Of a stretch of 21,730 nt of DNA, positions 6,562 through 15,507 are shown piece by piece. The DNA lies in IMG/VR virus record IMGVR_UViG_3300048065_000331, positions 1 to 21,730 of that record; one strand, 5' to 3'. Position 1 is the first letter of the stretch; each line of letters begins with the position of its first letter. A program made the position numbers and the translations under genes. The DNA is from a virus. Below the pieces are notes generated by a model. It searched no databases, was not told the DNA's origin, and worked only from the letters and a program-made list of their open reading frames with translations.

Positions 6562-7969
6562 TTTCTTCACCTGCAATTTCTTGTGTAGTGAATTGACCAA
6601 TACCTTCTGACTTAGAATCAATTTCACTATCTATCATGCTAATTTTTTCATCATCATCAACGACTGCTCTTGCAATTTGTTTATCAATCTCTTTTTTGAA
6701 TGTGGCAGACTCAACACCACTTGCTTTTGCTTTTTGTAAAAATTCAAGATCACTAGCATAATCTTTTAGATTAAAAGAATCAGGATATATTACTTCTCCA
6801 TCAAAAACTTTATTTTGCCATTTGGCAAAAAATCTCCATATATGTTCCTCAGCATTTTGTAAGTAATCAGCTTTCTCACTTAATCTCGCATTCAAAAGTT
6901 GGAACTCTGTTTGTAAAGCTATGCCAGATTGAACTCTATCTTGAGTGGCTCTTACTGCTCCCATGTGGGTAATTCTGTTAATAGCTTCTACTTTCATGTT
7001 AATATTGTTCATGATACTATCAAGAGATTGTGAACTTGGTTGTATTATGTAAGGTTTTAAACTTGCATCTAAATCTTCTGGCATTTCAATAATACTTCCT
7101 GCTCCTGCACTAGCTTCAACATTTGGTGTCTTAACTAAACTTGGGTGGTTTGACAATCTTATTAACTGTTCCATTTCTGAATAGTCATTGAAAATAGACT
7201 GTTGCAATTCTGCAACATCATTGAGATCAGATATACCAATGGCTCTTTTTTGAGATTTTTGGTTATACAATACAACCGCAGGTATTTCATTTAATGCGTT
7301 TGGAATTTCGTCAAGGAGTACAGGGTCACTTGCTCCAAATTCTTTTTTAAAATCATCAATTCTGTATGTGCAAATATCTTCAAGACTCCAAACTTTTACA
7401 ACCGCAGTATCGTCTACTAAATCTTCAAGAAGTGTTAATGATGTCAAGTAAAATCTACCATTGAGCAATCTTTCATATTTCCAATTCAATACATTTTCTG
7501 GTGTATAAAGACTAATATATGGTCTAATATCTTGTTGTAGTTCTTCTGCTCTTGTGTTTGTAACTACATTTGGTTTATCAATAATCGCCCAACAAGTTCC
7601 ATAGATACTTGCATTGACCTGCATTTCTCGTATAACATTGTCAAAACTTCTTCCGTCTAAATCTGCGTCTTGTATAAAAGAATCTAATTGTTCATCACCT
7701 GCCATACTGCCATAATCTCTTGTAGGTGAAACTCTAAATAAAAATGAAGAATAAATTTGAATTACATTTCTACAATGATTATCAATAGCAGTATTCATTG
7801 ATCTTTTCATATACTCCTCGTCAGTTTCTAAGGTATATCTATTGAGCAAATAGCCATTTTGATAGTCATTGCCACCTAAATATGATCTTAGATGAAAATT
7901 CCAATCATCAAATTTTTCATCATAATGTGAATGTCTTCTTGTTAAATATTCTCTACTGTATTTTGCCAT
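6548..7969 (-). CDS. Portal protein
   Basis: The 473-residue protein begins MAKYSREYLTRRHSHYDEKF. I choose ATG 7969 because it shares a base with the terminase stop (TAATG) and is preceded by GGTGGAG; an in-frame GTG at 7978 is part of that ribosome-binding site. Features include an aromatic N-terminal segment (FDDWNFHLRSYLGG), the YMKRSMNTAIDNHCRNVIQI helix with a following FLFR, central beta-rich parts such as SLYTPENVLNWKYERL, and a C-terminal helical region with SGIALQTEFQLLNARLSEKA and an acidic tail. Portals form the dodecameric ring through which DNA is packed and ejected. Length and position right after the large terminase are as expected. The 20-nt repeat (7198-7217) lies inside it. 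Confidence 0.88.
   Translation of the reverse strand: MAKYSREYLTRRHSHYDEKFDDWNFHLRSYLGGNDYQNGYLLNRYTLETDEEYMKRSMNTAIDNHCRNVIQIYSSFLFRVSPTRDYGSMAGDEQLDSFIQDADLDGRSFDNVIREMQVNASIYGTCWAIIDKPNVVTNTRAEELQQDIRPYISLYTPENVLNWKYERLLNGRFYLTSLTLLEDLVDDTAVVKVWSLEDICTYRIDDFKKEFGASDPVLLDEIPNALNEIPAVVLYNQKSQKRAIGISDLNDVAELQQSIFNDYSEMEQLIRLSNHPSLVKTPNVEASAGAGSIIEMPEDLDASLKPYIIQPSSQSLDSIMNNINMKVEAINRITHMGAVRATQDRVQSGIALQTEFQLLNARLSEKADYLQNAEEHIWRFFAKWQNKVFDGEVIYPDSFNLKDYASDLEFLQKAKASGVESATFKKEIDKQIARAVVDDDEKISMIDSEIDSKSEGIGQFTTQEIAGEEIAEA
7198..7217. repeat. 20-nt palindromic repeat, copy 2
   Basis: This is identical over 20 nt to 5568-5587, with the same 7-bp inverted repeat around a 4-nt loop. It encodes V-A-E-L-Q-Q in the portal protein, the same reading frame and peptide as in copy 1. 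Confidence 0.75.
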
Positions 7970-9186
7970 TAACTCCACCTCTTAGCGTTACTTGGTGTAA
8001 ATTCTCTTTTTAAAGGATATAAATATTCCACTAAATAACCCAATGCGTCATTGAAGTGATCATAGCCACTTGTTTTATCTGGAATTGTTGTACCATCTTT
8101 GTAAATTTGCCTTTCTACACTTCTTATCACATTTTTACAGTTCTTGGCAATAAATAAACTTATCTCGCCTCTTGCGTTTTGTAATTTTGCATTAACAGAA
8201 TTTATACGATCTCTTACAAGAGGGTGACTATTTCTTACTTTGATTGTAAATCCTGCATTCTTTAATATTGATAAATCAGTGATACCACCTGCACTTGTTC
8301 TTTTTTGTTTACATGCAGGGTCTGGATATATAACGATATTTTTTCCGTCAAATTTATTTCTTATTTCTTCTGCCATTTCATTAGTGTTTGAACTGTATAT
8401 TTGTATTTCATCAAATATATAAATTTTATTGTCTACTATTTCACTTACGACACATGCCATCGGATCAATGTTGAAATCTAAACCTAGATGTACTGTGTTT
8501 GTCTGTGGTACATAACTTTCTTTGATATGTTTTAATCTATCAAAATTGTAGTAAATAATTCCTGCATAATTAACAAAAGAAGCTTCATATTCTTGTTGGA
8601 ATGTTCTTTCATCTAAATCTTGTTTGGCTTGTTCTATTTCTTGTGCAGGAACTTGTTTTCCTTCAAGAGTAGTATATTTAAAACTTGCCCATTCTTTATC
8701 AGTTTCATGCTTTAAAAATAAATTGTAACTCCAATTACCGTAACCTCTAGGAGTTCCACAAAAGAGAACATGACCTCTACGGTCAGATAGTGTAGGTCTA
8801 AGAACTTCGTACCAAGCATTCTCTTTAATATCTGCAAATTCGTCCATACACAAGAAATCTAATCCCACACCACGAAGCGCTTGTTCATTATCAGCGCCTC
8901 GTAACGAAATTGTAGAGCCATTTCTTAATGTAGCAGTGAGATCAGAATTATTAACATGGCTTAACCATTTGTGTTTTAAAAGTCTATCAAGAAGATCACT
9001 CCATACTATCTGCTTTGCCATACGAAAAGTTGGTGCTACATACCACACTCTTTTTTTTGGATAACGAGCAAATTTAGCTAGTTCATTGATGGCTAGAAAT
9101 GTTTTACCAAATCTTCTACCACTAATAAGCACTCTAAATCTTGCTTCACTACCTATTACTTCTTTTTGAGGTTTTGTTAATCCCAA
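7969..9186 (-). CDS. terL: Terminase large subunit
   Basis: This 405-residue protein is the packaging motor ATPase/nuclease. Walker A is S-G-R-R-F-G-K-T at residues 22-29. Walker B is L-D-F-L-C-M-D-E at 109-116 with the catalytic Glu 116, and the coupling motif F-C-G-T-P-R-G lies at 142-148. The RNase H-like nuclease begins with L-G-L-D-F at 234-238 (Asp 237) and has further acidic positions at Glu 260, Asp 289 and the C-terminal D-H-F-N-D at 376-380. The start is unusual: no ATG lies before Walker A, and TTG at 9186 directly follows the in-frame TAG of the small subunit. Translation probably restarts there by coupling; readthrough is discussed in the findings. Confidence 0.95.
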   Translation of the reverse strand: MGLTKPQKEVIGSEARFRVLISGRRFGKTFLAINELAKFARYPKKRVWYVAPTFRMAKQIVWSDLLDRLLKHKWLSHVNNSDLTATLRNGSTISLRGADNEQALRGVGLDFLCMDEFADIKENAWYEVLRPTLSDRRGHVLFCGTPRGYGNWSYNLFLKHETDKEWASFKYTTLEGKQVPAQEIEQAKQDLDERTFQQEYEASFVNYAGIIYYNFDRLKHIKESYVPQTNTVHLGLDFNIDPMACVVSEIVDNKIYIFDEIQIYSSNTNEMAEEIRNKFDGKNIVIYPDPACKQKRTSAGGITDLSILKNAGFTIKVRNSHPLVRDRINSVNAKLQNARGEISLFIAKNCKNVIRSVERQIYKDGTTIPDKTSGYDHFNDALGYLVEYLYPLKREFTPSNAKRWS

Positions 9187-9519
9187 CTATACATCGTAAG
9201 TCCAAGGCATTGGCTTATCGTCCTCTGCGTTCACAATAACTTCTCTTTGCCCTAGAATTTGCTTTCCTAACCATATTAACATTGTGCAATTACCAGATTG
9301 TGCTTTTTCAAACTGCATACGTCTTAATGACATTTTGCCCCTGTTCTTTCCCCTTTTTATAGTATCCGCAAAATTACGTTCAAGTGTATCTACTGAGCAT
9401 TCAAAAAATGACGCCATTTCTTCCATAGTGCATAGCATAGACGCTAATTTTTCTAATTTGGCTTCATCTAGTTCTATTTTAGGTCTTCCGACCTTCTTTT
9501 TTTGTATGTCTTGTTCCAT
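9187..9519 (-). CDS. terS: Terminase small subunit
   Basis: This 110-residue protein starts MEQDIQKKKVGRPKIELDEA. After a basic G-R-P-K segment comes a helix-turn-helix-like region (about 20-60: LEKLASMLCTMEEMASFFEC then SVDTLERNF), followed by KRGKNRGKMSLRRMQFEKAQ and GNCTMLIWLGKQILGQRE, a pattern very common in small terminases that recognise the packaging site and feed DNA to the large subunit. It ends at TAG 9189-9187, directly abutting the large subunit in the same frame. The start (ATG 9519) has a weak AGGA about 8-10 nt upstream; another ATG-like context just before it is out of frame. Confidence 0.88.
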   Translation of the reverse strand: MEQDIQKKKVGRPKIELDEAKLEKLASMLCTMEEMASFFECSVDTLERNFADTIKRGKNRGKMSLRRMQFEKAQSGNCTMLIWLGKQILGQREVIVNAEDDKPMPWTYDV

Positions 9520-9528
9520 ATCATTTTC

Positions 9529-9957
9529 CTATTTTGTTATTGATAATTTCTCCCACCACTTACCCCTTTTTTTTGGAGTATAGTCAGTTTTTTCTTTCTT
9601 CCAATACTTACATTGTTGAAATAAAACTCCCATGTGTCCGAGAGGTTTTAACCTATGTACTTCTTTTTTACGAACTTTGTCAATGTAATCTACATATTCT
9701 TCCCATTTTTTTGGATAACTAAAACGCAAATGAAGCATAGAATGACATCTAACACAAAGAATGTGAATGTTATCTAAATAATCATTAAGTGTTGGACCAT
9801 ATTCTTCTGCATGTGGCATAGTTTTAGTGTAACCACACATTTCACAGTCACCCTCTAATTTAATTGATTTGGGTAATCTATTAAGTTTTTTAAGCAGTTT
9901 GAATTGACCAAACATTTCAAGTCTTTGTTCACCACTCCAATTCTTATAAGATTTCAT
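9529..9957 (-). CDS. HNH endonuclease next to terminase
   Basis: This 142-residue protein has a zinc-binding HNH core. C-E-M-C lies at residues 38-41, His 49 in M-P-H-A-E-E-Y, Asn 63 in D-N-I-H-I-L-C, a second C-V-R-C at 68-71, and His 72 and His 76. The two CxxC pairs would hold a structural zinc and the His/Asn residues the metal-dependent nuclease site. HNH proteins encoded directly before the terminase genes, as in HK97 (gp74), stimulate specific genome cleavage during packaging, so that role is likely here. A homing-type function is less likely because the gene is tightly embedded: it overlaps the GNAT gene by 4 nt (ATGA) and precedes the small terminase by 9 nt. Confidence 0.8.
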   Translation of the reverse strand: MKSYKNWSGEQRLEMFGQFKLLKKLNRLPKSIKLEGDCEMCGYTKTMPHAEEYGPTLNDYLDNIHILCVRCHSMLHLRFSYPKKWEEYVDYIDKVRKKEVHRLKPLGHMGVLFQQCKYWKKEKTDYTPKKRGKWWEKLSITK

Positions 9958-10325
9958 AATATTTTATATATCCATGAGCCATTTTTAACCACAGATTTTA
10001 CTTTCCAATTTTGTTCTATCCACCATTTTGGATTAGATGCTAATTGATCAATATAACAAGCATTATTTTGTATGAGATCATCAATAATAAATTCCATCAA
10101 AGAACTACCTAATCCTTGACCACGATATTCTTCAAGGACAAATACACTTCGTATTCTGCCTTTACCATTTTTAAGGATAGTTCCTGCTACGCCACAGAGT
10201 TTATTATCAAGATATACACCAAACCATTTGGTAGTATCAGTGTCTTTAAGGTTTACTTTGTCTTTTTTTGCTTTGTTTGCTAGTAACTTAGCAATATCAA
10301 AGTTTATTGGCTCTATGTTTATCAT
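9954..10325 (-). CDS. GNAT-family acetyltransferase
   Basis: This 123-residue protein starts MINIEPINFDIAKLLANKAK. The acetyl-CoA motif A is clear: R-S-V-F-V-L-E-E-Y-R-G-Q-G-L-G at about 59-73, with R-G-Q-G-L-G as the pyrophosphate-binding loop, followed by helix SSLMEFIIDDLI. Upstream strands FGVYLDNKLCGVAGTILKNG match the family's beta 2-4. It is shorter than most GNATs (about 140-160), ending soon after a W-x-x-x-x-W-K-V strand. The substrate cannot be read. It overlaps the ParB-like gene by 4 nt and the HNH gene by 4 nt (ATGA at both ends), so it is co-translated with the ParB/PAPS-reductase block. It may modify phage or host protein, or take part in DNA modification. Confidence 0.85.
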   Translation of the reverse strand: MINIEPINFDIAKLLANKAKKDKVNLKDTDTTKWFGVYLDNKLCGVAGTILKNGKGRIRSVFVLEEYRGQGLGSSLMEFIIDDLIQNNACYIDQLASNPKWWIEQNWKVKSVVKNGSWIYKIL

Positions 10326-10831
10326 TTGCCATTTTCAACAGGGTACCAAGCATTTTTATATTTATAGTTTGCAATGTTTTTCATTTTAAAGACACCATCT
10401 TGATATAAAAGATCTATCTCAGATTTAGTAGCACCAATTTCTTTACATAACTGTTGACTATCAATTTTGTGTTTGTCAATAAGTTCATGAACAATCTCAC
10501 TCATTTGTACTGCCACATGTGAACCTTTGGCTCTATTCATGCGAATTGTCATGATCATTCCTGTTGGTCTGTCAATATCTAGGATTGCACAAGGTACTTT
10601 ACCTTTATAAATATCTTTAATAACTTTACTGTCTTTAGATAAACTCCACCTATGAAACCCATCTATAATCATTAAGTCTTTGGTTATAAGTATTGGTTGC
10701 ACCCAACCTGTCTTCAAAATACTTAATTCAAGTAATCGTAGCTCTGGACTGAACACAACATTTGGATTGTAATCATTTCCATTGAGTGTATCTGCATCAA
10801 GCCATTGTATGTTGTTAATTGGGTCGTTCAT
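10322..10831 (-). CDS. ParB/sulfiredoxin-fold protein, IbrB-like
   Basis: This 169-residue protein has the ParB N-terminal domain: a D-Y-N-P-N segment at 20-24, G-W-V-Q-P-I-L-I at 42-49, and the nucleotide-handling motif I-I-D-G-F-H-R-W at 55-62. A second conserved-looking block, M-T-I-R-M-N-R-A-K-G-S-H at 94-105 with a following helix (MSEIVHELIDKH), is what I recall for IbrB-type proteins. A C-terminal helical part (QQLCKEIGATKSEIDLLYQD) could be DNA-binding. It directly follows, with a 4-nt overlap, a PAPS-reductase-family gene, as in ibrA-ibrB. In ParB the same fold binds and hydrolyses CTP; activity here is unknown. Confidence 0.85.
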   Translation of the reverse strand: MNDPINNIQWLDADTLNGNDYNPNVVFSPELRLLELSILKTGWVQPILITKDLMIIDGFHRWSLSKDSKVIKDIYKGKVPCAILDIDRPTGMIMTIRMNRAKGSHVAVQMSEIVHELIDKHKIDSQQLCKEIGATKSEIDLLYQDGVFKMKNIANYKYKNAWYPVENGK

Positions 10832-11889
10832 TTTCTTTTCCCTTCTGGTAAAATGTTTCTTTTAAAAGAGCCACTTATGAATACTTGTAGTAAATATTTA
10901 GGTGTATAGCCAAATGGCTTTGTTCTTATAGCATTCATAACTGTGTTAAATCTTTTGATTGCCAAGGCATATTGTTCAACATCTTCTGCGAGAAAATCAT
11001 CAATCCATTGACGCACTCCTCTATAATCTTTCCCATATTCTTCTTTCATTTTTTGTTTGTTGAGTTCTTTATAATATCTTTCATGCGCTAACATTTCAGG
11101 AAATATATCAATTATTCTTTGATAAAATTCTGGTGTAGTTTGTTTTATTAAATGAAATCTTTTTGCACTCTCTGCATGAAGTGGTGTTGAAACACGCAAT
11201 CCACTTTCTGAATACATTTGAAGATCATATAATTTGCAGTATTCAATATCATTGTCATAAAAATATTTGAATATGTCATCTTCTTCCCAATCAAATAGAG
11301 GTTTGCATAACATTACATTACGAGCATTTTTATCACTGACTGCATTAATATAGTTATCATTAAGTTTATTTACTGATGCTCTAAATCTTATTAATGATTC
11401 ACTAGCACGAATACCTGTTACAAAAGCAACTTTACCTTTGTAAAAAGTTGATGTGAATAAATCCATGGTGTATTGGTCAAAGACTCTTTCATCTCCTGCA
11501 GGTAGTGAATACCCAAATGAAGGTTTATCTCTTACCCATTTTCTATCGTTATCCCATTGTGTGTATGATTTGACCACAGATAAAACATACTTTGATGATT
11601 TCAATGGAACACAAAACCATATCATATTTATCCAATCTTTTTGTCTGTACTTATCTACAAAATTGATAACTTCATCTGGGATTACTTCTTCATCACGAAA
11701 TACAACATCAACAGGTTTAGTCATTCCTCTTTCGTCTTGAACTTCTTTCATTAAATGTAAACAAGCTAATGAGTCTTTGCCTCCTGAAAACATACAAACA
11801 ACAGAATCAAAAATATCGTAAATGTGATGAAGGCGTTTTTTAGTTTCTACATAAACGTTTTCGTCTATGTAACCTTTGACTTTAACCAT
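10828..11889 (-). CDS. PAPS reductase-family (adenine nucleotide alpha-hydrolase-like) protein, IbrA-like
   Basis: This 353-residue protein has the PP-loop V-C-M-F-S-G-G-K-D-S at 31-40, which binds the phosphates of ATP or APS-type substrates, followed by LACLHLMKEV. A second family motif, V-T-G-I-R-A-S-E-S-L-x-R, lies at about 157-168, and P-L-F-D-W-E-E-D-D-I-F near 206-216 closes the site. The C-terminal third (about 255-353, YYKELNKQKMKEEYGKDYRG and similar) is helical and resembles the DUF3440-type extension of IbrA. The C-terminal cysteine motif of true PAPS reductases is not seen, so sulphate reduction is unlikely; nucleotide activation or sulphur transfer is more plausible. It overlaps ParB-like genes on both sides (4 nt and 8 nt). 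Confidence 0.88.
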   Translation of the reverse strand: MVKVKGYIDENVYVETKKRLHHIYDIFDSVVCMFSGGKDSLACLHLMKEVQDERGMTKPVDVVFRDEEVIPDEVINFVDKYRQKDWINMIWFCVPLKSSKYVLSVVKSYTQWDNDRKWVRDKPSFGYSLPAGDERVFDQYTMDLFTSTFYKGKVAFVTGIRASESLIRFRASVNKLNDNYINAVSDKNARNVMLCKPLFDWEEDDIFKYFYDNDIEYCKLYDLQMYSESGLRVSTPLHAESAKRFHLIKQTTPEFYQRIIDIFPEMLAHERYYKELNKQKMKEEYGKDYRGVRQWIDDFLAEDVEQYALAIKRFNTVMNAIRTKPFGYTPKYLLQVFISGSFKRNILPEGKRK

Positions 11890-12478
11890 GCTCGTTGTTG
11901 CGTATGTACTCGATCAGTCTTTGACCTATAGTTTCGTGGTGTGGATAAATTTCTTTCAATCTTTTAATAAATTGAAACCATGATTCTTGTTGTTCTTTGT
12001 TATCAAAAATTACATTGTATTGAATAATGTAATTTGCTTCCGCTCCTGCAACTTCATTTTGATCTACAACATCAACAGTATCATCATTTGTATATGTAAT
12101 TAAACTTTCTAATTCTTGATTATCAAATCCTAATTTTTCTAAATCATAATTAACATCTAGAAGATCACCAAATTCAGCATTTAATAAAGGAAAATCCCAT
12201 TCACTACCTTCATTAGTTTTATTATCTGCAATTCTATATGCTTTGATTTTCTCTGCTGACATATCAGCAATAAGAACAGGAACTTGTTTCAATTCTAATT
12301 GTCTACTTGCCTCAAGCCTTGTATGACCAACAACAACTGTCATAGATTTATCAACTACTATTGGTTGTTGAAATCCAAACTCTTTAATGCTGATAGCAAC
12401 TTTTTCAACATTTAAATTTTTTCTAGGGTTTTTATTGTAAGGTTTAACTTCGTCTATATTAACTAATTTAATATCCAT
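11882..12478 (-). CDS. ParB/sulfiredoxin-fold protein, methylase-associated type without a methylase domain
   Basis: This 198-residue protein begins MDIKLVNIDEVKPYNKNPRK. The ParB core has Y-N-K-N-P-R, F-G-F-Q-Q-P-I-V-V-D (about 34-43) and V-V-G-H-T-R-L-E-A-S (about 49-58). These are followed by a helix EKIKAYRIADNKTNEGSEWD (about 77-96), the linker seen in ParB domains fused to phage DNA methyltransferases. Here no methyltransferase follows, and the protein ends with an acidic region and short helices. ATG 12478 is preferred because it shares a base with the upstream TGA (TGATG); the frame also allows TTG 12481. It overlaps the IbrA-like gene by 8 nt. Two ParB-fold genes flanking a PP-loop enzyme suggests a multi-subunit system. 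Confidence 0.85.
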   Translation of the reverse strand: MDIKLVNIDEVKPYNKNPRKNLNVEKVAISIKEFGFQQPIVVDKSMTVVVGHTRLEASRQLELKQVPVLIADMSAEKIKAYRIADNKTNEGSEWDFPLLNAEFGDLLDVNYDLEKLGFDNQELESLITYTNDDTVDVVDQNEVAGAEANYIIQYNVIFDNKEQQESWFQFIKRLKEIYPHHETIGQRLIEYIRNNEHG

Positions 12479-12678
12479 CAATGGTATGTAATTGGTTTGT
12501 AATCTATTTTTATATAATTAAGTTCTCTAAAAATAGAATCTGCCAATTCTTCTGCTTGTTTTTTATCAGTAAAATTAGCAAATTTCAAGATTACTGAATG
12601 ACTCCCATCTTTTTCTTCAATAATATAAAAATTAGGTTCATAAAGATCATTATCTTTCATCAATAAAACATATTTCAA
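12478..12678 (-). CDS. Small protein, 66 aa, unknown
   Basis: The product reads MKYVLLMKDNDLYEPNFYII with a KFANFTDKKQAEELADSIFR helix in the middle. It looks like a small alpha/beta domain: two strands, a helix and a final strand. Starts are TTG 12678, overlapping the TGA of the replication gene (TTGA), or ATG 12660; neither has a strong Shine-Dalgarno sequence. I keep the longer form because KYVLLMKDND makes a good first strand. It is coupled to the ParB-like gene downstream by a TGATG junction. No family recognised. Confidence 0.6.
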   Translation of the reverse strand: MKYVLLMKDNDLYEPNFYIIEEKDGSHSVILKFANFTDKKQAEELADSIFRELNYIKIDYKPITYH

Positions 12679-13430
12679 TTAGATTGTTTTGCAAGTTCCT
12701 CTTGGAACTTTTCCATATCTTGTCTACTCCATGTTTGTAATCTAATACCTTTTTTATACATTTCACAATTCTGTTGAAACCTATACTTCTCATGTTCTTC
12801 TTTATCAAATACTTCTTCCTTTGGAATTTCATCTGCCCAACCTTCTGCTGAAAGCCATGTACTTGGGTGTTTTGCAAAGGTTTTATCTTTAAGATTGTCA
12901 TAATAAACATTAAATAAATTAGCTAATTCTTTTGGTCTATCTTGATTTTCTTTACTTAACTTATCAAAGTTTATTCTTGCTTGTCCTTTACTCACTTTAT
13001 ATCTCAATAAATCCCAAAATATCTCAAAGTTATTATTTATAGTTTTAGTTATAGTATTAGTTCTAGTCTTAGTTTTAGTAGCAGTGCCTTCGCTTTGCGT
13101 TCGCAATGCGTTTGCATTCCATCTACTACTTGCGCTTTCACTAGCTTTTGTACTCACAGAAATTGCATAATCATATTCTTTCTTCAATCTTTTCTGCACA
13201 TATCCATCTTCTTCTTCTGTAAAAAATAATCTTACAATCTTGTCTACGAGATCATCGTTCTTAACCTTGGGTAAATTATAAAGTATATCCTTGTCTTTAG
13301 GTAAAGTTGCTTCATGCGTCCACGCATAAAATATTAATCGTAAATACATACCTAATTCTTCTTCTGTCAAATATGAAGTATCACTGTTAAATGCGTCTAC
13401 AAATAAATTCATCTTGGGTAATTTTGCCAT
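12675..13430 (-). CDS. Replication protein with DUF1376 (YdaU-like) domain
   Basis: This 251-residue protein begins MAKLPKMNLFVDAFNSDTSY. Residues about 8-55 (LFVDAFNSDTSYLTEEELGM, then YLRLIFYAWTHEATLP) match the DUF1376 domain of phage replication proteins. A low-complexity linker (about 107-133, NANALRTQSEG then alternating T-x: TATKTKTRTNTITKT) joins it to a C-terminal region FWDLLRYKVSKGQARINFDK and KHPSTWLSAEGWADE (about 186-200), which resembles the helicase-loader/origin-binding end of such proteins. The likely role is loading the host replicative helicase at the phage origin. The ATG has AGGAGA 8 nt upstream and overlaps the zinc-ribbon peptide gene by 22 nt. The linker DNA is an eight-unit hexamer repeat. 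Confidence 0.85.
   Translation of the reverse strand: MAKLPKMNLFVDAFNSDTSYLTEEELGMYLRLIFYAWTHEATLPKDKDILYNLPKVKNDDLVDKIVRLFFTEEEDGYVQKRLKKEYDYAISVSTKASESASSRWNANALRTQSEGTATKTKTRTNTITKTINNNFEIFWDLLRYKVSKGQARINFDKLSKENQDRPKELANLFNVYYDNLKDKTFAKHPSTWLSAEGWADEIPKEEVFDKEEHEKYRFQQNCEMYKKGIRLQTWSRQDMEKFQEELAKQSN
13041..13088 (-). repeat. Eight tandem hexamers (ACTnnn on minus strand), possible origin iterons
   Basis: On the + strand the units are agtttt, agttat, agtatt, agttct, agtctt, agtttt, agtagc and agtgcc with no interruptions. On the coding strand every second codon is ACT (Thr), eight of eight, giving the T-x-T-x linker of the replication protein. Exclusive use of one of four Thr codons suggests selection or expansion at DNA level. 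Lambdoid phages carry origin iterons in the equivalent place inside gene O. Confidence 0.6.
13095..13118. repeat. Two overlapping short inverted repeats in the replication gene
   Basis: The first, ttgcg-tt-cgcaa (13095-13106), is a perfect 5-bp palindrome with a 2-nt centre. The second, aatgc-gttt-gcatt (13105-13118), is 5 bp with a 4-nt loop. They are markedly more G+C-rich than the surroundings and lie directly next to the hexamer array. Confidence 0.5.
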
Positions 13431-13578: not shown

Positions 13579-14343
13579 TCAAACACCCCAGATTTTTTTT
13601 CTTAAAGGAATATTTGTTTCATTCCAAATCCAATGATCACAGTCTGGTTGGTATAAATAAGCAAAATCTTTTTTTTCATCACACATGCTTAAAACTTTGT
13701 TCATACCTTTAACAACATTGCATACTTCAATCTCATGCTCATCAGTAAATTGAATATCAACTTCTTCATGTTTTTTTGGTGTAACAATGTAAAGACTACA
13801 ATTCACTTTTTTGTTATATTTTTCTTCTAGTGCTTTTTTATATATCCATTGTTGTAATTCATCTGACTTTTGTTTACGCATTTGTTTTTTAGTTTTTAAA
13901 TCATAAACAAACAATTCATCTCCACCATCAAATATGAAATCTGTATAACCAATGAAGTCTATATTCTCAATGGTTGTTCTAATTTCTTCTTGGTAACTAT
14001 GTAATTTGTAATTGCCTAACTTATTAAATAATGGCTCACATTGTTTGTAGAACTCTGGTATCAATTTTAAATATTTAACCACATCATCTTGGTCATAATA
14101 TTCACTAAATTGTTCAGCAAATTTTTCTAAATATGTATTTAATTGAATGTCCATACCTTGCATATAATCATGTAACATTTTTTCCACTACGTTACCTGTT
14201 CTCATAGCAGGTGTAGCCACACTTTTATATCCATAAATTCTATCAATAATAAAACTCACAGGCATATTCTTAAATGAATTTAATTTAGAAAAACTCATGG
14301 GAAGTAAATCCCACTTTGCAAAATTATCGTTTGAACATTCCAT
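13579..14343 (-). CDS. PD-(D/E)XK nuclease (RecB/Cas4-like phage exonuclease)
   Basis: This 254-residue protein begins MECSNDNFAKWDLLPMSFSK. Landmarks of the RecB-type nuclease fold are S-F-S-K-L-N-S-F (17-24), the G-N-V-V-E-K-M-L-H helix ending in His 58, the catalytic Asp 135 in I-G-Y-T-D-F, and Asp 148 and Lys 150 in V-Y-D-L-K-T-K-K. The Q-Q-W-I-Y-K-K-A motif IV helix is at about 164-171. These positions match a single-domain exonuclease that would resect double-stranded ends for the ERF annealing protein encoded about 0.7 kb upstream. No C-terminal Cys cluster of the Cas4 iron-sulphur type is obvious. The start overlaps the preceding stop (TAATG). Confidence 0.85.
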   Translation of the reverse strand: MECSNDNFAKWDLLPMSFSKLNSFKNMPVSFIIDRIYGYKSVATPAMRTGNVVEKMLHDYMQGMDIQLNTYLEKFAEQFSEYYDQDDVVKYLKLIPEFYKQCEPLFNKLGNYKLHSYQEEIRTTIENIDFIGYTDFIFDGGDELFVYDLKTKKQMRKQKSDELQQWIYKKALEEKYNKKVNCSLYIVTPKKHEEVDIQFTDEHEIEVCNVVKGMNKVLSMCDEKKDFAYLYQPDCDHWIWNETNIPLRKKIWGV

Positions 14344-14537
14344 TATTTTTCTAATGTATATTCTGCAAAGGTTTTGCCATTTTTAGTTATGTTTTTTGTT
14401 TCAATATTATAACCCTTTTGTCTAAGTTCTAATATTCTTGCTGAAAGTCTAAAGCAATCAAATAACTTCAATGCTTGTATTGGTGTTAATTTTTTACCTT
14501 GTTCTAAATAATTTAATATTCTTTTATTTTGTGTCAT
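14343..14537 (-). CDS. Small winged-helix/HTH protein
   Basis: This 64-residue protein starts MTQNKRILNYLEQGKKLTPI. The sequence LTPIQALKLFDCFRLSARIL (about 17-36) followed by ELRQKGYNIETK is the common phage helix-turn-helix: a first helix, the I-Q-A-L recognition entry, a second helix R-L-S-A-R-I-x-E-L-R, then a beta wing G-Y-N-I-x-T. It probably binds DNA. It lies between an HNH protein (14-nt overlap) and the PD-(D/E)XK nuclease (TAATG overlap), so a role in recombination or in local regulation are both possible. Confidence 0.75.
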   Translation of the reverse strand: MTQNKRILNYLEQGKKLTPIQALKLFDCFRLSARILELRQKGYNIETKNITKNGKTFAEYTLEK

Positions 14538-14853
14538 TATGTTTCTCCTTATATTGACTGTATAGTTCTTGACTGTAATTAAAAGGGTCTACTTGTAACC
14601 TTTCCCAAAACTTTCTTTCACCATATTTAAATGTCAATTCTTGATGGTGTTCAAAACAAATTGGAATACCTGTACTGTCATCACGAATCATTGCACCAAT
14701 TCTATGAATGCCTTGAAGGTGATGAAATTGGATTCTATGAAAGTTTAAATATCCCTCTAAATCACAAACATAGCAAGGGTGCATTTCACACACCCAAGCC
14801 ATGTACTTCTTGTCTTTGATGATCTTCCTTTTCTTAGAAAGGAATGTTTTCAT
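14524..14853 (-). CDS. HNH-type recombination protein (Ref/DUF968-like)
   Basis: I take ATG 14853, giving 109 residues starting MKTFLSKKRKIIKDKKYMAW; the frame continues upstream to ATG 14892, but that part is only a lysine run overlapping the neighbouring gene. Motifs are C-Y-V-C at 27-30, paired histidines in F-H-H-L-Q-G at 43-48, R-I-G-A-M at 51-55, D-D-S-T-G-I-P-I-C at 58-66 and a final H-H-Q-E-L at 69-73. The C-x-x-C...H-H...C-x-x-H-H arrangement fits phage HNH proteins of the Ref/DUF968 class, which make RecA- or recombination-linked cuts. It overlaps the small SSB-like gene by about 20 nt and lies in the recombination block. Confidence 0.75.
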   Translation of the reverse strand: MKTFLSKKRKIIKDKKYMAWVCEMHPCYVCDLEGYLNFHRIQFHHLQGIHRIGAMIRDDSTGIPICFEHHQELTFKYGERKFWERLQVDPFNYSQELYSQYKEKHNDTK

Positions 14854-15079
14854 CTTCTTTTTTTTCTTCGCCAACATAATCGTTTTCATCAATTTTTATG
14901 CTGACCATATCTACTTGTTTGCCACTTGCGGTTTCAGTTTTTTTCCACAATGCAACCTGTACTGTAGTTCCTGCTTTAAAGATAACATCTTCCTCTAATA
15001 TTATTTTATTATTAGAATATAGAGGTTTTCTATCACCTTCTTCTTTGTCGTTATTTCTAAATAAATTAAACCAAGCCAT
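14834..15079 (-). CDS. Small protein with SSB-like acidic C-terminal tail
   Basis: This 81-residue protein starts MAWFNLFRNNDKEEGDRKPL. The core has a strand pair VIFKAGTTVQVALWKKTETA and VDMVSIKIDEND; the end is E-E-K-K-E-D-E-N-I-P-F. An acidic tail ending I-P-F is the hallmark by which single-stranded DNA-binding proteins recruit partners. The core is too short for a standard OB-fold SSB (about 100 residues), so it may be a reduced form or a protein that mimics the tail. It has the strongest ribosome-binding site here, AAAGGAGGT, located in the end of the ERF gene, with which it overlaps (TTAATG). High expression next to ERF fits an SSB-type role. Confidence 0.65.
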   Translation of the reverse strand: MAWFNLFRNNDKEEGDRKPLYSNNKIILEEDVIFKAGTTVQVALWKKTETASGKQVDMVSIKIDENDYVGEEKKEDENIPF

Positions 15080-15507
15080 TAAAGACCTCCTTTATTTTTT
15101 GGTTTTTCAAATTCAACAGTCACATTGTTGAGTTCGCTTTCTTCTTCAATTCCAACTTTCATCATAAAAGTTTTCATTAAAAGATATTTGTAAGCATAGG
15201 TTATCGCTTTGCCTATTCCTTTATCTTGGTTGTCATAGCCATAACCAACATAATTACCAACTTCTTTTTTCTCTTGGGTATCTATGTCAATTATTTCTGC
15301 TTTAACAGTTGCTGAAGTCAAATTACCTTCTTTGGTATGTTCAAGTACATGGGGAACAATCAACAATCTGTGTTCAAATAATTGCTCTCGTAAATTATCA
15401 GCAACATCATTCCACATTGTTACATTCCAAGCCATACCTTTTGCTTTTTTTTGCATAACCTTTTCTATGTTATGTGTTATGTCAAAAAGTTTTTTGTCTA
15501 GTGTCAT
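15079..15507 (-). CDS. erf: ERF-superfamily single-strand annealing protein
   Basis: This 142-residue protein begins MTLDKKLFDITHNIEKVMQK. The ERF signature is at 86-114: Y-V-G-Y-G-Y-D-N-Q-D-K-G-I-G-K-A followed by ITYAYKYLLMKTF, preceded by a TSATVKAEIIDIDTQEK beta hairpin. ERF proteins anneal complementary single strands during phage recombination, usually with an exonuclease and an SSB, and all three candidates are present here (14834, 13579). It is shorter than P22 Erf (about 200), lacking the C-terminal domain, with only a Lys/Glu tail. The start is preceded by AAGGAGAAAACTATG, a cassette found identically before two other genes. Confidence 0.85.
   Translation of the reverse strand: MTLDKKLFDITHNIEKVMQKKAKGMAWNVTMWNDVADNLREQLFEHRLLIVPHVLEHTKEGNLTSATVKAEIIDIDTQEKKEVGNYVGYGYDNQDKGIGKAITYAYKYLLMKTFMMKVGIEEESELNNVTVEFEKPKNKGGL

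Follow-up and report, generated by a model that had tools for sequence, protein, structure and literature searches.

An IbrA/ParB gene cassette of an uncultivated virus and its relatives, with an acetyltransferase and a methyltransferase alternating in one position: a candidate phage DNA-modification system

Results

Gene content of the locus

The window analysed here is a stretch of 21,730 nucleotides (nt), positions 1 to 21,730 of IMG/VR record IMGVR_UViG_3300048065_000331, which represents an uncultivated virus as a single contig whose genes lie nearly all on the minus strand. We identified, between a DUF1376 gene and the genes for TerS, TerL and the portal protein, a block of five genes, ParB1-IbrA-ParB2-GNAT-HNHa, whose products are two ParB-domain proteins, a PP-loop enzyme, a GNAT-family acetyltransferase and a zinc-type HNH-like protein (Table 1). 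Neighbouring open reading frames (ORFs) overlap by 4-8 nt: IbrA overlaps ParB1 by 8 nt, ParB2, GNAT and HNHa each overlap their neighbours by 4 nt, and a 9-nt gap separates HNHa from TerS (9519). An earlier interpretation made from the letters of this DNA, hereafter the sequence-only reading, had described such an overlapping block containing an IbrA-like PP-loop enzyme with an IbrB-like partner, and the ORFs, the overlaps and the database matches of both proteins bear this out.

Table 1. Coordinates of the cassette genes and their neighbours in the window
Feature	Coordinates	Strand	Remarks
ParB1	11882..12481	-	start ATG 12478 or TTG 12481; Pfam ParB_N 8e-11
IbrA	10828..11889	-	PP-loop enzyme; PAPS_reduct 3e-18, phrog_2302 1e-107
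ParB2 (IbrB-like)	10322..10831	-	phrog_2159 5e-67
GNAT	9954..10325	-	Acetyltransf_1 5e-11; 123 amino acids; slot enzyme of the window cassette
HNHa	9529..9957	-	zinc-type HNH-like; Pfam HNH weak, E 0.003
TerS	9187..9519	-	phrog_309 7e-7; neighbour, outside the cassette
TerL	7969..9186	-	neighbour; TerS-TerL-portal run spans 9519 to 6548
DUF1376 primosomal/replication protein	12675..13430	-	neighbour; same-locus marker in pelagiphage HTVC112P
66-amino-acid ORF	12678-12478	-	4-nt overlap with the DUF1376 gene

Conservation of the cassette and exchange of the slot enzyme

Searches with IbrA of IMG/VR, GTDB genomes and cultured phages returned 114 loci, which formed 91 clusters at 95% IbrA identity, 81 of them with enough downstream sequence to be scored. 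Genes near IbrA served to refine the gene profiles, which were then run on every ORF of all loci, with the exception that un-iterated ParB profiles were used for the counts because iteration blurred the distinction between ParB1 and ParB2. Outside the counted IbrA neighbourhood the profiles matched nothing but genes of the window itself and a single additional HNHa, and the association is therefore not an artefact of the search. ParB2 was present in all 81 clusters and ParB1 in 75. The position filled by GNAT in the window, which we term the slot, was occupied by a GNAT in 44 clusters and by a methyltransferase in 22; the two never occurred together (Fisher p 1e-9 for mutual exclusion, not corrected for kinship), and 15 clusters had neither. 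The co-occurrence on which the sequence-only reading had staked its hypothesis is thus strong and far beyond chance, with the same genes found together in about 80 divergent viruses. That reading had also regarded a ParB without a methylase, and the GNAT partner, as the unusual parts of the block, but these counts make them the rule in the cassette.

Across loci the cassette genes are mostly tightly packed or overlapping. Their order varies, such that ParB2 may lie before or after the slot-HNHa pair, and HNHa is sometimes encoded on the opposite strand. On a tree of the 81 IbrA proteins, the three slot states require at least 26 changes, and GNAT and methyltransferase alone at least 17; to fit the well-supported branches, each of these two labels must change at least 10-11 times. 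The clearest case is one pair of loci (L045 and L046) whose IbrA proteins are 90% and ParB2 proteins 95% identical, one carrying a GNAT and the other a methyltransferase. Because two unrelated group-transfer enzymes replace each other on one core, we infer that they share an acceptor; such alternation would be expected of a shared acceptor, and it is hard to explain if the two enzymes were independent passengers. More generally, mutually exclusive enzymes in a single operon slot offer a way to deduce a shared substrate. Both this alternation and the coupling of HNHa to the slot described below go beyond the sequence-only reading.

The two forms of the cassette differ in where they are found. 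The window GNAT had no matches in cultured phages, and all cassettes of the GNAT form came from uncultivated viruses or from one contig of a bacterial metagenome-assembled genome (L113). The methyltransferase occurs in 18 cultured-phage records, all from Arthrobacter, Bacillus or prophi79-1 phages, which also carry IbrA. Scans of viral contigs with single proteins gave 2 and 3 loci for GNAT and the methyltransferase, respectively. The GNAT-type cassette of L113 is followed by terminase-like and portal-like ORFs, and this contig is therefore probably a prophage; the other bacterial contigs, from the Nocardia genomes L112 and L114, carry the methyltransferase type. In one locus an additional gene of unassigned function, encoding 221 amino acids, lies between IbrA and GNAT (L097:8110-8775). 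Microbacterium phage Rasputia (L033, 589-5646) has a more distant PAPS-reductase-like gene, which is adjoined by three glycosyltransferases together with an acetyltransferase and a methyltransferase; this group may be a further modification or glycan cluster.

Association of HNHa with the slot enzyme

HNHa was present in 59 of 66 loci with a slot enzyme and in 2 of 15 loci without one (odds ratio 61, p 1e-8). Among pairs of loci with IbrA identity of 60-95%, HNHa proteins were 46-61% identical when the slot enzymes were of the same type and 29-40% identical when they were of different types. Likewise, changes of slot type numbered 9 on the HNHa tree and 14 on each of the IbrA and ParB2 trees for the same loci. 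In cultured phages, all five records matching HNHa were from prophi79-1 and Rhizobium phages, which are host groups of the IbrA matches. Taken together, these data support, but do not prove, that HNHa and the slot enzyme are a cognate pair.

Three points stand in the way of proof. Adjacent genes can move together for no functional reason, and the co-divergence of HNHa and slot enzyme could in part reflect their exchange in one recombination event. The effect of slot type on HNHa, significant by shuffling (p 0.001, compared with 0.09 for ParB1 and 0.16 for ParB2), comes from shuffles that ignore phylogeny. Finally, a test of slot-HNHa association on independent pairs across well-supported branches gave a median p of 0.125, the informative pairs being too few for significance.

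The motif C38xxC41...H49xE51xY53...C68xxC71H72xxxH76 is near-invariant among 64 HNHa homologues. Whereas the other four proteins have clear domain assignments, the score of HNHa against Pfam HNH is 18 bits, under the cut-off of 21, and its structural model (predicted local distance difference test, pLDDT, 90) has a weak fold match to a known HNH nickase (probability 0.54). A search of PDB sequences with the HNHa profile returned zero matches, and the good matches in a viral structure library were to unnamed proteins only. At least 8 loci encode a separate gp74-like HNH beside HNHa, some loci being too short to look. We considered HNHa as a plain packaging HNH and rejected this assignment, given that the two kinds of HNH coexist and that HNHa tracks the slot enzyme.

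IbrA retains PP-loop motifs and has no invariant cysteine

In an alignment of approximately 90 IbrA proteins, the motifs SGGKDS, GxRxxES-xxR and PxxDWxxxD are near-invariant, and no cysteine is; the best column, C218, is cysteine in 77 of 90 and the next in 46 of 90, and some members are cysteine-free. Accordingly, the catalytic cysteine of PAPS reductase is conserved in no column. DndC is characterised by three conserved Fe-S cysteines and a cysteine dyad (PMC10853773), a set that the IbrA alignment does not conserve. Profile scores agree with these absences, as IbrA falls far under the NCBIfam CysH cut-off and scores 20.8 bits against the DndC equivalog, whose cut-off is 290.4, although weak matches to DndC were obtained (1.5e-4 and 4e-6). 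With its PP-loop motifs kept and an invariant cysteine lacking, IbrA should activate its substrate with ATP and without persulfide or iron-sulfur chemistry. We therefore rejected IbrA as a PAPS reductase or DndC-like sulfur transferase, and both sulfate reduction and DndC-like phosphorothioation by this protein are disfavoured.

ParB1, ParB2 and the relation to known IbrA/IbrB pairs

ParB1 consists of a ParB N-domain and a conserved C-terminal domain, and its matches to ParB structures are confined to the former. It is closest to phrog_620, a family of phage ParBs that stand alone, and to phrog_498 (5e-39), in which the ParB domain is fused to a DNA methylase; it also matches the PADLOC model MTase_II, a ParB-fused type II methyltransferase (7e-25). 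By these profile matches, ParB1 is placed within the group of ParB proteins fused to or encoded beside phage DNA methylases. In ParB2, an N-domain with a DGFHR motif is followed by a helix-turn-helix (HTH)-like region, and matches to true ParB structures extend across the former into the latter.

A PP-loop enzyme of phrog_2302/PF01507 is encoded with a ParB of phrog_2159 in 81 of 81 loci, which is the arrangement of an IbrA/IbrB pair. The window proteins are 37% (IbrA) and 50% (ParB2) identical to the pair of Rhizobium phage L338C, in which the ParB2 homologue is annotated as IbrB. In contrast, distant IbrA/IbrB types from Streptococcus, Flavobacterium and Gaia have no ParB1, GNAT or methyltransferase, or HNHa.

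The two slot enzymes

The GNAT model (pLDDT 94) adopts the canonical acetyl-CoA N-acetyltransferase fold, with PDB GNATs matching at E-values down to 2e-8. Of the acetyl-CoA motif (R/Q)xxGxG, R68 is kept in 44 of 45 homologues and G71 in 41 of 45; R57 is invariant. Members of the family are basic throughout (median isoelectric point 9.7). The Mom protein of phage Mu has been described as a GNAT-fold protein, and the sequence-only reading had drawn on it as an analogy. However, similarity of GNAT to Mom was undetectable (hhalign probability 0.5%; BLASTP E 21), and the window protein has the canonical acetyl-CoA motif.

The slot methyltransferase, phrog_11826, is unrelated to GNAT and carries a class-I S-adenosylmethionine motif, with an odd ARRxxPE motif at the position of the DNA-methylase catalytic motif. 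In seven of its loci (L008, L010, L015, L017 and L024-L026), we observed an invariant ARR..PE segment and an EGR motif, and found no recognisable DNA- or RNA-methylase motif.

The corresponding locus in pelagiphages

The closest cultured relatives of the window TerL are from Pelagibacter phages (54-55% identity), and the host is therefore likely a SAR11-like or similar marine bacterium. In pelagiphage HTVC112P, the interval between DUF1376 and TerL contains a ParB1 homologue (35% identity over 186 amino acids, 2e-29) adjoined by a TET/JBP oxygenase (1e-29) and an FkbM methyltransferase, which stand in place of IbrA-ParB2-GNAT-HNHa. The record names the oxygenase 'DnaJ chaperone protein / putative SNF2 DNA repair protein'; the ParB-TET/JBP-FkbM set (L151:3004-5226) is probably a cytosine hypermodification operon that is misannotated there. 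At the corresponding position in HTVC111P, after a DnaD-domain gene, lies a DNA methyltransferase (phrog_757, 2e-64).

ParB-domain proteins were also reported in 2025 near the characterised genes CmoX/CmoY for 5-carboxymethylcytosine hypermodification, where the role of ParB is unknown and an ATP-dependent ligase extends the base (PMC12783734). The window cassette resembles that system in being a phage operon that joins an ATP-dependent enzyme to a putative DNA-modifying one, with ParBs often nearby. It differs in having no recognised CmoA/CmoX homologue, in using the PP-loop enzyme IbrA, and in its finishing enzyme, which is a GNAT or an unrelated methyltransferase.

Discussion

Our data identify a constant ParB1-IbrA-ParB2 core onto which one of two group-transfer enzymes, generally with its own HNHa, has been exchanged many times. 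We consider the chances evenly balanced that this block is a cassette for modifying phage DNA, in which the core stays constant and the finishing module can be exchanged. This is the best-supported explanation because of the kinship of ParB1 to methylase-linked ParB domains and the genes found at the same locus in pelagiphages. The uniformly basic GNAT family and the ParB proteins that accompany CmoX/CmoY also speak for a link to DNA. The DNA-modification hypothesis of the sequence-only reading is thus strengthened as a class, while both analogies on which it leaned are unsupported: Mom for want of similarity, and DndC for want of the expected conserved cysteines.

Under this explanation, ParB2, with its ParB NTP (nucleoside triphosphate)-binding domain and HTH, and ParB1 would place the machinery on DNA, which we regard as a reasonably probable substrate. 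IbrA would consume ATP and release pyrophosphate while activating a base, or a group attached to one, yielding a nucleophilic and probably amine-bearing product. The slot enzyme may cap the group made by IbrA, by acetylation in the window phage and by methylation in relatives, a step that we propose with some reserve. HNHa, matched to the slot enzyme, would most likely cut or nick DNA depending on how the DNA is modified, in the manner of restriction-modification; that HNHa reads the modification at all is a more tentative suggestion. In its complete form, the proposal is of an undescribed DNA modification and restriction system in which the ParB-PP-loop-ParB core installs a reactive base derivative, the acetyl or methyl cap is swappable, each cap has its own HNH nuclease, and phages change their DNA chemistry by means of a two-gene module. 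The conjunction of all these parts is doubtful. We found no description of such a cassette in the open-access literature searched, a scope outside which subscription journals and preprints mostly fall.

Several observations weigh against DNA modification by the cassette. Of the four pelagiphage relatives, two (HTVC202P and HTVC026P) carry nothing recognisable as a modification gene at this position. In 13 of the 81 scored loci there is neither a slot enzyme nor HNHa, and the core must therefore act alone there. The slot methyltransferase is devoid of any usual DNA-methyltransferase motif and resembles generic class-I enzymes, and the nearest structural relatives of GNAT, which include RimI and ArgA, act on proteins or small molecules.

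One alternative is a role in host takeover, in which the target of GNAT or the methyltransferase is a protein, the ribosome or RNA of the host, ParB and IbrA act on nucleotides, and DNA modification is not involved. Protein acetyltransferases, along with RimI and ArgA, are among the nearest GNAT structures, the methyltransferase weakly matches tRNA methyltransferase and RrnaAD profiles, and there is a precedent in Rac, reported to be a phage GNAT acting on host RNA polymerase (PMC7552054). We nonetheless find this unlikely, as it leaves unexplained a dedicated HNH partner, the presence of two ParBs, the HTH-like region of ParB2, the kinship of ParB1 to methylase-linked ParBs, and the TET and DNA-methyltransferase genes at the pelagiphage locus.

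The position of the cassette directly upstream of TerS-TerL, in the window and in several relatives, raises the question of whether it is an accessory to packaging, with HNHa as a terminase-associated HNH like HK97 gp74 and the other genes tuning the processing of DNA before packaging. HNH proteins adjoining terminases are known packaging components, and HNHa is like gp74 in being zinc-type and near the terminase. However, HNHa belongs to another family, follows the slot enzyme rather than the terminase, is sometimes separated from TerS by ParB2 or encoded on the other strand, and is absent from core-only loci that are nonetheless terminase-adjacent; its coexistence with gp74-like proteins adds to a case that makes this role distinctly improbable.

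A further alternative is that IbrA and ParB2 form a transcriptional co-activator pair, as proposed for IbrA/IbrB of Escherichia coli, and that the other genes are unrelated passengers. The names stem from the E. coli system, the Rhizobium pair is annotated accordingly, and ParB2 carries an HTH-like region. Yet a conserved cassette with mutually exclusive GNAT and methyltransferase and a coupled HNH is unlike passenger behaviour, and a distant subfamily consists of IbrA/IbrB only, without any extra genes; we hold this alternative to be very improbable. Phosphorothioation by a DndC-like IbrA, suggested by the shared PAPS-reductase/PP-loop superfamily, the SGGKDS motif and the weak DndC matches, is the least credible of all, given that invariant cysteines are lacking and that we saw nothing in the window resembling a DndD or DndE gene.

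Pairs of IbrA and ParB occur commonly in phages, yet what they do biochemically is not known, and the alternation of the slot enzyme makes DNA modification by the cassette testable. We would predict a core modification carrying an additional 42 Da (acetyl) in GNAT-type phages and 14 Da (methyl) in methyltransferase-type phages, and left uncapped in core-only phages. Cultured members of the methyltransferase and core-only types exist, namely Arthrobacter phage Salgado, Bacillus phage 055SW001 and Mycobacterium phage Obutu. If the proposal is correct, phage-host conflict would gain a new chemistry together with a modular way to change it, and enzymes that acetylate DNA could serve as tools.

Other features of the window

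The 66-amino-acid ORF beside the DUF1376 gene had zero detectable homologues across all fetched loci and was dropped as a component of the system. PADLOC reported zero defence systems in the window, its only hits being ParB1 to the ParB-fused type II methyltransferase and weak IbrA matches. Positions 13579-15507 comprise a probable recombination/nuclease module. Its parts are a PD-(D/E)XK exonuclease (13579-14343), an additional ORF that is HNH-like (14524-14892) and one that appears Erf-like by eye (15079-15507).

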